Positions 21,916 to 27,576 of a stretch of DNA of 64,000 nt are shown piece by piece (position 1 is the first letter of the stretch; each line of letters opens with the position of its first letter). Source of the DNA: Mesoterricola sediminis (GTDB lineage Bacteria > Acidobacteriota > Holophagae > Holophagales > Holophagaceae). The stretch covers positions 62,001 to 126,000 of the forward strand of contig NZ_AP027081.1 in NCBI RefSeq assembly GCF_030295425.1. The letters run 5' to 3'. A model generated the notes under the pieces. It saw nothing but the letters and a program-made list of their open reading frames with translations. It searched no databases and was not told the origin of the DNA. A program made the translations under genes and the position numbers.

Positions 21916-22773
21916 TCAGACCCCCGCGGCGTAGGTGAGGTTCAGGAGGGCCATGGCCCGCGTGACCTTGCCGACGCTGTTGCGCTTCGTGTTGGTGTAC
22001 TGGATCCCCTTGGCGTCCAGGGCGGGGTAATCGAAGTTGCCCTGGTGGCTCAGGTCCACGCACAGGGCGGAGGGCTTGATCCAGTCCGTGGGGAGCAGGT
22101 AGTCCTGGGCGGGCACGGCGCTGATGATCACGTCGGCCATCTTCACGAAGCCCTCGAGGTGGTCCTGGTTCGTGTGCTGGTGGCAGATGATGGGCGTGCC
22201 CTTGAGGTTGGCCACCATGGCTGAGACCGGGCGGCCGATGCGGAGGCTGTCGTTGATGATGAGGACGGTCTTGCCGGCGAAGTAGTCGGTGCCGAAGCCC
22301 CGCTTGATCACCTTGATCACCGCGCGGCCCGTGCAGGGCACCATGCACACGCGGTCGATCCCCTCGGACATGCGCTTCCGGAACTTGTTGAGGTAGCCGA
22401 TGTTGATGGAGTGGAGGCCCTCGATGTCCTTGCCGGGGTCCACCAGGTCCATGATCTCGTCGTCCTTCAGTTCGGGGTACCGGAGGGGGTAGAAGATGAA
22501 GATGCCGTCCGTGCCCGTGTCCTGGTTCAGGTGGGCGATGAGCTTGACCACCTGGATCCCGCTGCCGACCATGTGCAGGGAGGTGCGGATGCCCATCTCC
22601 TCGCAGTCCTTCACGAGCAGGTCCCGGTAGAGCACGCTGCCGGGGTCGTCGCTGCCCAGGATCACCCCCAGGCCGGGCGCCCGGCCCAGCTTCTTGACGT
22701 TGGCCTTCACCCGCTCGCGGTAGTGCAGGGCGGTCTCGACGCAGTCCAGCTTTCCGGTCGGATGGAAGGTCAT
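21916..22773 (-). CDS. MTD1-like methylenetetrahydrofolate dehydrogenase
   Basis: The 285-residue protein has the FolD fold but departs from bifunctional FolD at catalytic sites. In the segment SVLYRDLLVKDCEEMG the position of the FolD catalytic Lys (E. coli K56) reads Leu. The FolD QLPLP motif reads FYPLR. The C-terminal Rossmann half retains LIINDSLRIGRPVSAM and VDLSHQGNFD, which resemble yeast Mtd1, the monofunctional NAD-dependent 5,10-methylene-THF dehydrogenase that lacks cyclohydrolase activity. I infer a dehydrogenase-only enzyme of one-carbon metabolism. GGAGGTG before the ATG at 22773 decides the start over an upstream in-frame codon. No canonical folD lies in the window. Confidence 0.78.
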   Translation of the reverse strand: MTFHPTGKLDCVETALHYRERVKANVKKLGRAPGLGVILGSDDPGSVLYRDLLVKDCEEMGIRTSLHMVGSGIQVVKLIAHLNQDTGTDGIFIFYPLRYPELKDDEIMDLVDPGKDIEGLHSINIGYLNKFRKRMSEGIDRVCMVPCTGRAVIKVIKRGFGTDYFAGKTVLIINDSLRIGRPVSAMVANLKGTPIICHQHTNQDHLEGFVKMADVIISAVPAQDYLLPTDWIKPSALCVDLSHQGNFDYPALDAKGIQYTNTKRNSVGKVTRAMALLNLTYAAGV

Positions 22774-22836
22774 TCGGCACCTCCGGGCCATTCTACCGGT
22801 TTATCCTAGGACGGAATGCAGGAGGCCCCGGTTTTC

Positions 22837-24279
22837 ATGACAAAGCAGGCACCCCCCGCCCAGGCGCTGCAGGTCCGGCTGGCGGCGTCGTACCCGGACG
22901 CCCGCTGCGCCCTGGACCACGTGGACCCGTTCCAGCTCGTGGTGGCCACCCTCCTGAGCGCCCAGTGCACGGACGCCCGGGTCAACCTGACGACGCCCGC
23001 CCTTTTCGCCCGGTTTCCCGATGCCCGGGCCCTCGCTTCGGCCGACCTGGCGGAGCTGGAGGGCCTGATCCGTTCCACGGGATTCTACCACAACAAGGCC
23101 CGGAACCTGAAGGCGCTGGGGGCCGCCCTCCTGGCGCGCCACGGGGGGGAGGTGCCGGACACCCTGGAGGCCCTGGCCGCCCTCCCCGGCGTGGGGCAGA
23201 AGACCGCCAACGTCGTCCTCAGCAACGCTTTCGGCGTGCCGGCCCTGCCCGTGGACACCCACATCTTCCGGGTGGCCCGGCGCCTGGGCCTCTCCACCGC
23301 CGGGACCCCGGAGAAGGTGGAGGCCGACCTTTGCCGGCAGTTCCCCCGCGCGGCCTGGATCGACCTGCACCACCAGCTCATTCTCCACGGCCGCCGGGTC
23401 TGCGACGCGCGGAAGCCCGACTGCGCCGGCTGCGGCCTCCTGGACCTGTGCCCCACGGGCCAGGGGGCCCAGCCCGATCCCCACAGCGGCCGGGTGCTGG
23501 ACGCGCCCCGGGGCGCCGCCCGGGTGGCCCCGGCGCCCGCCCCGGCCCCCGCGCCCGCCACGGCCCCCACCCGGATCATCTCCCTGGTGCCCAGCGTCAC
23601 GGAACTCCTGGTGGCCTGGGGCCTGGCCTCACGCCTGGCCGGCAGGACCACCTTCTGCGTGGAGCCCCGGTGGATCCGCAACACGGTGCCCGCCATGGGG
23701 GGGACCAAGGATCCGGACCTCGCGCGCATCCGCTCCCAGCGGCCGGACCTGGTGGTGATGGAGCGCGGCGAGAACACCCGGGAGGCGGCGGAGGCCCTGG
23801 CCGCCGCCGGCCTGCCCCTCCTCGTCCTGGACATCCGGCGCGTGCGGGACTGCCTCAAGGCCTACCAGGTCCTGGCCGACGCCGTGGGCCTGCCCGAGGC
23901 GGGCCGGGCCCGGGCCGCGGCCCTCAAGGCCCGCCTGCGGCCGGCGCCCCGGAAGGGGCCCCGGACCGTGGTCCTCGTCTGGAAGGAGCCCTGGATCGTG
24001 GCCGGCCCCGACACCTACGTGGGGGACCTCGTCCGGCAGGCCGGTCTCATGCCCGTCGGAGGGGACGGCTACCCGCGCCTGGACGACGCCGGCCTCGCCG
24101 CCCTCGACCCCGAGGTGGTCCTCCTGCCCAGTGAACCCTACCGCTTCACCGTCCGGCACCGGGACGCCCTGGCCCGCTTGCTTCCCGGGGCCCGCGTCCG
24201 GCTCGTGGAGGGCCGGGCCCTCACCTGGTACCTGAGCCGCACCGAGGATGCCATCCTGCAGCTGCGCGCCCTGTCCTGA
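22837..24279 (+). CDS. Endonuclease III fused to a BtuF-like cobalamin/metal-binding domain
   Basis: Residues 1-215 are a complete Nth glycosylase/AP lyase. The helix-hairpin-helix LPGVGQKTANVVL carries the catalytic Lys122. Asp140 lies in VDTHIFRV. The [4Fe-4S] cluster is Cys189, 196, 199 and 205 in the C-x6-C-x2-C-x5-C spacing. An Ala/Pro linker (about 227-245) leads to a helical-backbone receptor domain (about 246-480) like periplasmic BtuF (IISLVPSVTELLVAWGL, then two Rossmann-like lobes). There is no signal peptide, so the second domain must sit in the cytoplasm. AGGAGG before the ATG at 22837 supports the start. It is co-transcribed with a thioredoxin-fold gene 26 bp downstream. Confidence 0.85.
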   Translation: MTKQAPPAQALQVRLAASYPDARCALDHVDPFQLVVATLLSAQCTDARVNLTTPALFARFPDARALASADLAELEGLIRSTGFYHNKARNLKALGAALLARHGGEVPDTLEALAALPGVGQKTANVVLSNAFGVPALPVDTHIFRVARRLGLSTAGTPEKVEADLCRQFPRAAWIDLHHQLILHGRRVCDARKPDCAGCGLLDLCPTGQGAQPDPHSGRVLDAPRGAARVAPAPAPAPAPATAPTRIISLVPSVTELLVAWGLASRLAGRTTFCVEPRWIRNTVPAMGGTKDPDLARIRSQRPDLVVMERGENTREAAEALAAAGLPLLVLDIRRVRDCLKAYQVLADAVGLPEAGRARAAALKARLRPAPRKGPRTVVLVWKEPWIVAGPDTYVGDLVRQAGLMPVGGDGYPRLDDAGLAALDPEVVLLPSEPYRFTVRHRDALARLLPGARVRLVEGRALTWYLSRTEDAILQLRALS

Positions 24280-26751: not shown

Positions 26752-27576
26752 TCAATCCGCGCCTCCGGGATGCTCGTCCAGCCAGGTCCGGACGGCCTTG
26801 AGGTCGCCCCAGACGGCCGCGCGCACCTCCTGGGTGTACTGCCGGAGCACGTAGGCGGGATGGAAGGTCGGCATCACCGGAATGCCCCCCAGCATCTCGA
26901 GGCGCTGCCACTGGCCCCGGATTCGGGTGATCCCGGCCTGGACGCCGACCAGCTCCCGGAGGGGGGTCGCGCCCAGCGTCACGATGACCTGGGGGCGCAC
27001 CAGCTCGATCTGGCGCCGCAGGTAGGGGAGGCACCGCTGGGCCTCGGCGGGGGTGGGGGTGCGGTTGTCGGGGGGGCGGCACTTCACCACGTTGCAGATG
27101 TAGACGTCCTCCCGGCGGAACCCCATGGCCACGATCATCTTGTCCAGGAGCTCCCCCGCGCGGCCCACGAAGGGCCGGCCCTGGAGGTCCTCGTCCCGGC
27201 CGGGACCCTCGCCCACGAACATGAGGCGGGCCCGGGGGGACCCCTCGCCGAAGACGAACTTCATGCGGTTGGAGCCGAGCGGGCAAGCCAGGCAGCCCCC
27301 GGTGCACGCCTCCAGCGCCGCCAGGTCCGGCGCGGCCTGCACGGCCTCCGGGGAGGGCCCGGCCCCCAGGGGCGGGGCCGCCGGGGTGGGGCGGGGCGGG
27401 ACCGGCGCGGCCTTCACAGCGGGGGTGGGAACGGGCGAAGCCTTCCCGGCGGGGACGGGCGCCGCCTGGATGGGGGGGATGTCGGGCGCGGCCGGGGGTT
27501 GGTAGGGTGGAGGGATGAGGCCCACCACCCCCAGGTCCTGGAGGGTGTCGCGCCAAGGGTGGAGAAGCCCGGTCAT
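26752..27576 (-). CDS. udg: Family 4 uracil-DNA glycosylase
   Basis: This enzyme removes uracil from DNA in base excision repair. The catalytic domain (about residues 88-265) has GEGPGRDED at 122-130 and the HPAY motif near the C-terminus. Cys95, 98, 166 (VVKCRPP) and 182 are the expected [4Fe-4S] ligands of families 4/5. An N-terminal tail of about 85 Pro/Ala-rich residues is probably disordered. In many bacteria this tail mimics the DNA polymerase beta-thumb-like region of phage SPO1, but no such similarity is visible here. It is the first gene of an operon with lapB. Confidence 0.9.
   Translation of the reverse strand: MTGLLHPWRDTLQDLGVVGLIPPPYQPPAAPDIPPIQAAPVPAGKASPVPTPAVKAAPVPPRPTPAAPPLGAGPSPEAVQAAPDLAALEACTGGCLACPLGSNRMKFVFGEGSPRARLMFVGEGPGRDEDLQGRPFVGRAGELLDKMIVAMGFRREDVYICNVVKCRPPDNRTPTPAEAQRCLPYLRRQIELVRPQVIVTLGATPLRELVGVQAGITRIRGQWQRLEMLGGIPVMPTFHPAYVLRQYTQEVRAAVWGDLKAVRTWLDEHPGGAD

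Follow-up and report, generated by a model that had tools for sequence, protein, structure and literature searches.

Endonuclease III joined to a cytosolic TroA-like receptor domain in one polypeptide of the Holophagaceae

Endonuclease III (Nth) excises oxidised pyrimidines and then nicks DNA at the resulting abasic site. BtuF is a periplasmic receptor for vitamin B12, and Tyr50, Trp66 and Trp85 are residues of its N-lobe that contact B12 in the E. coli structure. A second branch of the same receptor fold, defined by the TroA_like model NF038402, lies in the cytosol, and the literature searched held no functional study of it. Within a 64,000-nucleotide stretch of Mesoterricola sediminis DNA (the window), a complete Nth is joined to a receptor of this cytosolic branch. 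A search of the open literature returned no relevant report of an Nth-receptor fusion. Our best reading, to which we give a probability of about one half, is that of a working Nth to which a variable linker tethers a cytosolic receptor whose ligand is probably a corrinoid or a metal cofactor related to it, all originating in one fusion.

The fusion gene and its endonuclease III domain

The gene occupies positions 22837-24279 of the forward strand and forms one frame of 480 residues plus a stop that ends at 24279, with endonuclease III, linker and cytosolic TroA_like receptor in that order. The host contig is a single chromosome of 4,524,604 bases. A ribosome-binding site AGGAGG at 22820-22825 (forward strand), read from the sequence, serves the ATG at 22837 and favours it over an upstream ATG at 22816. 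Pfam HhH-GPD and Peripla_BP_2 matches agree with a two-domain layout of the protein, and the original prediction that both domains lie in one polypeptide was thus confirmed.

The Nth domain comprises residues 10-209 (22864-23463, forward strand). In a profile search it scored 245.4 bits against the TIGR01083 equivalog (cut-off 211.7) over residues 10-196. The helix-hairpin-helix LPGVGQK (residues 116-122) ends in the catalytic Lys122 (23200-23202), and the catalytic Asp140 (23254-23256) lies in PVDTH (residues 138-142), both on the forward strand and positioned by script; they correspond to Lys120 and Asp138 of the E. coli enzyme. The [4Fe-4S] motif C-X6-C-X2-C-X5-C follows at residues 189-205 (23401-23451, forward strand), and its four cysteines are kept in 42/42 fused proteins of the set described below. 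All catalytic and Fe-S residues that had been claimed for a complete Nth are accordingly in place.

An AlphaFold model of the fusion, based on an alignment of 61 rows, reached a mean pLDDT of 94.7 and a pTM of 0.87, and the sole stretch of low confidence inside the chain was found at about residues 221-240, in the linker. A run with a shallower Nth alignment had given a pTM of 0.84 and a poorer N-domain (about 4.8 Å), a fault that disappeared with more rows. The pTM lies above expectation for two freely moving domains of equal size and suggests a defined domain packing, as read from this global score rather than from an inter-domain error map.

Divergent from the fusion, and outside it, lies a FolD-like gene (21916-22791, reverse strand) that is a conserved neighbour of nth in the Holophagaceae, the unfused G009 included. 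The catalytic motif of FolD is YxxxK. Since YRDLL stands at this position, and since a second FolD in the same genome (C1:4217120) scores better, the paralogue may have kept the dehydrogenase activity alone or be non-catalytic. A family-4 uracil-DNA glycosylase (26752-27576, reverse strand; 201.6 bits, cut-off 125.3) follows the fusion at a distance of about 2.5 kb downstream, which places two base-excision glycosylases close together.

Distribution, history and linker of the fusion

A search of relatives for the same two-domain protein, as the original prediction had proposed, yielded 42 distinct full-length fusions from Holophagaceae genomes and metagenome-assembled genomes (MAGs) of independent projects, spread over several genera; within the aligned set the fused proteins are 45-75% identical to that of the window. 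When 61 Holophagaceae genomes were sampled, the receptor family exceeded its cut-off in 49, with a full-length match in 48, which in 47 of these falls in an open frame of 462 residues or more. The exceptions were G080, in which a 236-residue frame starts at a contig end, and G079, with a partial match. Some sister genera carry nth alone and lack a TroA_like receptor, and no receptor of the NF038402 family was found in eight genomes whose nth stands alone (G007, G009, G013, G016, G017, G019, G021 and G029). Three genomes that retain the fusion (G012, G020 and G027) measure 0.9-1.2 Mb and have a GC content near the gene of about 43%, which would fit the streamlined genus UBA12189/'Acidiparvus' (PMC11561045). 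No fusion was found outside the Holophagaceae, either among 28 free-standing TroA_like receptors of Acidobacteriota or at the nth loci L041-L111 of other taxa, beyond the Acidobacteriota sampled solely through contigs that match nth.

The receptor-domain tree placed every fused copy in one clade (SH-aLRT 99) apart from 15 free-standing copies, which argues for a single fusion event. In the Nth tree the fused state requires three changes, and a single fused clade was not rejected (p-AU 0.62); one fusion followed by losses is therefore the simplest history. A free-standing receptor beside nth was considered as a precursor of the fusion and was found in none of the 28 loci (whose neighbours were annotated in part). 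Across 11 species pairs, simple pairwise dN/dS estimates put Nth at 0.05-0.28 and the receptor at 0.12-0.43, while those for the linker, from short alignments, ran from 0.08 to 1.1 and were in most pairs higher than those of either domain. Purifying selection thus acts on the two domains and largely spares the linker. We conclude that the fusion is real, ancient in these soil and freshwater bacteria, and maintained by selection.

The linker itself (residues 206-245; 23452-23571, forward strand) consists of a DPH(S/T/L)G tail followed by a hypervariable Ala/Pro segment. As the conserved tail is also carried by unfused Nth proteins of the family, the receptor was evidently added behind a pre-existing Nth tail. 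The Ala/Pro linker of the original prediction holds for this species and not for the family as a whole: richness in Ala and Pro is seen here only, and across the fused proteins the linker measures 17-68 residues and varies as widely in sequence. In some Geothrix-type fusions the linker DNA holds a dispersed repeat that is read in frame (L025:2227-2316, the linker of the G030 fusion; L232:470-766). Repeats of this type occur 59 times in G018, partly as 99-bp tandem units with a palindromic core GGGGGGAC...GTCCCCCC, and 6-9 times in G008, G030 and G065.

A variable and fast-evolving linker is what one might see if the fusion were an accident without functional coupling, that is, two independent proteins in one chain, each with its own job. 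Such an explanation, which we consider possible if somewhat doubtful, also draws on the sister genera that keep Nth without a receptor and on the free-standing receptors, which are not associated with nth. Against it, no split form occurs among 42 distinct proteins from several genera, although an uncoupled fusion might sometimes split, and the pTM of the model is high. If the two activities are not coupled, the gene would be a clear example of a gene fusion that lasts although its parts do not act on each other.

The receptor domain and its probable ligand

The receptor domain spans residues 246-480 (23572-24276, forward strand). It scored 154-157 bits against NF038402 (cut-off 30) over residues 246-465, covering model positions 1-217 of 219; together with the Peripla_BP_2 match and the fold of the model, this supports the helical-backbone receptor that had been predicted. 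The predicted cytoplasmic location holds as well, as the domain is C-terminal to a cytosolic repair enzyme and no export signal was seen by eye at the N-terminus; being internal to the chain, the receptor has no signal peptide of its own. The label 'BtuF-like' stood for the fold and fell for the family. Membership of BtuF was ruled out by the equivalog score (34.8 bits against a cut-off of 234 for NF002894), by location and by the pocket residues.

In the profile alignment, the N-lobe aromatics Tyr50, Trp66 and Trp85 of BtuF are replaced in the fusion by Glu276, Thr290 and Glu309. Since these contacts are not conserved, the ligand need not be B12, and its binding mode must differ from that of BtuF. 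The permease-docking residues Glu72 and Glu202 of BtuF become Ala296 and Ala418, positions that vary within the family, with Glu or Asp in some members. Cys274, Lys291, Glu312, Asn313, Trp382, Pro385, Trp386, Phe437 and Trp464 are kept in 42/42 fused proteins, and most are invariant in free-standing members too. Across fused and free-standing proteins together, the invariant or nearly invariant set is Arg246, Ser249, Pro252, Cys274, Gly288, Lys291, Glu312, Asn313, Trp382, Pro385, Tyr412, Glu433, Pro434, Phe437 and Trp464. To judge from the alignment with BtuF, and not from coordinates, these residues would line the ligand cleft, with Cys274, Lys291, Glu312-Asn313, Trp382, Tyr412, Glu433 and Trp464 in a TroA_like pocket distinct from that of BtuF.

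The cytosolic branch recurs across the Acidobacteriota and is also present in Actinomycetota and Bacteroidota. A survey of 396 Acidobacteriota genomes gave a score gap between TroA_like proteins (at least 196 bits) and BtuF-like ones (at most 170 bits). Free-standing copies from Acidobacteriota open almost at once with an MR(I/V)(V/I)SL strand or have a few polar residues ahead of it, with no signal peptide by eye. Among the 28 free-standing loci, part of which were searched for riboswitches, three lie in btuF-btuC uptake clusters, two of these with a cobalamin riboswitch. In G246 and G259 the receptor is downstream of the riboswitch and btuF-btuC on the same strand, with about 9 kb and other genes, one of them on the opposite strand, intervening in G259. 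In G101 its immediate neighbours are btuF on one side and a FecCD permease-ATPase pair (btuC-btuD) on the other, and in G374 a run of N separates it from the genes downstream, which encode methylmalonyl-CoA mutase with the B12 subunit. The btuF-btuC clusters thus occur in two Acidobacteriota families and the mutase neighbour in a third. As G246 and G259 belong to one family, the corrinoid link comes from two lineages and one more across an assembly gap. In 24 of the 28 loci no B12 gene was seen among the neighbours examined, which are mixed; recurrent neighbour families are mostly common only within one bacterial family.

Two further observations were made at these loci. A second receptor-like family of about 300-313 residues, apparently without signal peptide and starting PSSTEIVCALG or PSATEILFALG (L148:2745-3686 and L159:217-1125, both reverse strand), is encoded within or close to the clusters that hold the free-standing TroA_like gene in G246 and G101. 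In G366 (L221:4085-6905), by sequence reading, the receptor follows genes like those of an ABC importer of the zinc type, while the opposite strand carries a regulator of the Fur family, a context that possibly points to a metal rather than a corrinoid.

Of the corrinoid or metal sensor in the original prediction, a link to corrinoids is supported indirectly, through free-standing members in btuF-btuC clusters and beside methylmalonyl-CoA mutase. A corrinoid-type ligand is most likely, given the genomic context of the free-standing relatives and the similarity in sequence and fold.

The C-domain model is equally near to BtuF (1n2z, Z 24.1) and to the heme receptor ShuT (2r7a, Z 24.1), with RhuT and BhuT in the same range (Z 23-24). 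Its ligand could then be heme, an iron chelate or another metal complex, for example one tied to iron or to the Fe-S cluster of Nth, and the invariant Cys274 could serve as a metal ligand; the missing B12 aromatics agree with this. We nevertheless consider a ligand of this kind unlikely, as profile scores of the receptor family favour BtuF structures (92-95 bits) over heme receptors (73 bits) and the context of the free-standing members is B12-related where informative. In BtuM a cysteine is reported to be the axial ligand of cobalt (PMC6072759). The invariant cysteine of the receptor recalls this residue by analogy, which is not evidence.

For B12 uptake the Holophagaceae have a different operon, associated with a riboswitch and encoding a TonB-type receptor, a periplasmic receptor, BtuC and BtuD; it was traced in detail in G012 and partly in the genome of the window. 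Of 31 genomes, 30 have a cobalamin riboswitch, 30 a BtuC-type permease and all 31 B12-binding proteins, with or without the fusion. Because the uptake riboswitch and permease are present either way, the fusion is not a transport receptor. For the same reason a presence/absence test of the fusion against B12 use had no power and was set aside. No cobalamin riboswitch was found in the stretch covered around the fused gene at seven loci (L171-L176 and L180) nor in the window.

Proposed tethering, possible coupling and comparison with known systems

In the explanation we propose, one cytoplasmic protein would combine a predicted working endonuclease III with a C-terminal TroA_like receptor free of a signal peptide. 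The fusion would have arisen once in the Holophagaceae lineage and later have been lost from, or not shared by, a few genera. In the cytosol the receptor would bind a corrinoid, or else a metal cofactor closely related to corrinoids, in a pocket unlike that of BtuF, and a long, variable and flexible tether would hold it next to the glycosylase, so that the two activities would share expression and location. Simple tethering without allostery is our default.

It could also be envisaged, in line with the original prediction, that a corrinoid or metal cofactor bound by the C-domain alters DNA binding or catalysis by Nth and so couples repair to cofactor or redox state. The pTM values of 0.84 and 0.87, which suggest defined packing, the invariant receptor residues and the retention of the fusion in streamlined genomes are consistent with such ligand-gated repair. 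A linker of such unequal length and relaxed rate is, however, unlike a tuned coupling element, none of the 28 free-standing receptors is near nth, and several sister genera do without the receptor; we thus regard it as distinctly unlikely. Direct regulation of base-excision repair, or of the Nth Fe-S cluster, by the receptor in response to the cofactor seems to us very unlikely, and we know of no precedent for a ligand-gated DNA glycosylase of such a kind. Were there coupling, it would connect base-excision repair with the state of a cofactor in a manner not described before. The receptor might instead protect or deliver a cofactor near DNA, or do no more than share the chain.

A sequencing or assembly artefact, such as a stop or frameshift missed in the linker, has practically no chance of being correct, given that 42 distinct proteins, from the genomes and MAGs of numerous projects, have this architecture and that the contig is a single one of 4.5 Mb; the orthologues always split by a linker stop that the original prediction would have taken as a sign of artefact were not found, as 42/42 read through.

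As the receptor is stably fused to an enzyme whose activity is known, the protein offers a handle on the cytosolic receptor branch, in that ligand and effect on a measurable reaction could be addressed in one protein. Compared with bacterial Nth (Geobacillus stearothermophilus 1p59/1orn and E. coli 2abk), the fusion has a common HhH-GPD fold, the catalytic Lys and Asp and the [4Fe-4S] loop, and the N-domain of the model superimposes on the DNA-bound enzyme (1p59/1orn) with Z 29.1 and an rmsd of 1.5 Å over 211 residues at 44% identity. In contrast to these enzymes, it carries about 270 more C-terminal residues, which make up a complete second domain. This domain has the fold of BtuF (Z 24, over an alignment that spans most of it), and yet lacks the signal peptide, the adjacent BtuCD and the N-lobe B12 aromatics of that system. 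It shares the fold equally with ShuT, RhuT and BhuT, which are periplasmic and match with a lower sequence-profile score. The free-standing TroA_like proteins of NF038402 (about 235-275 residues) have the same invariant residues and likewise no signal peptide, whereas the fused clade is joined to Nth and bears a signature of its own in Trp261, Glu309 and an LSRT motif after Trp464.
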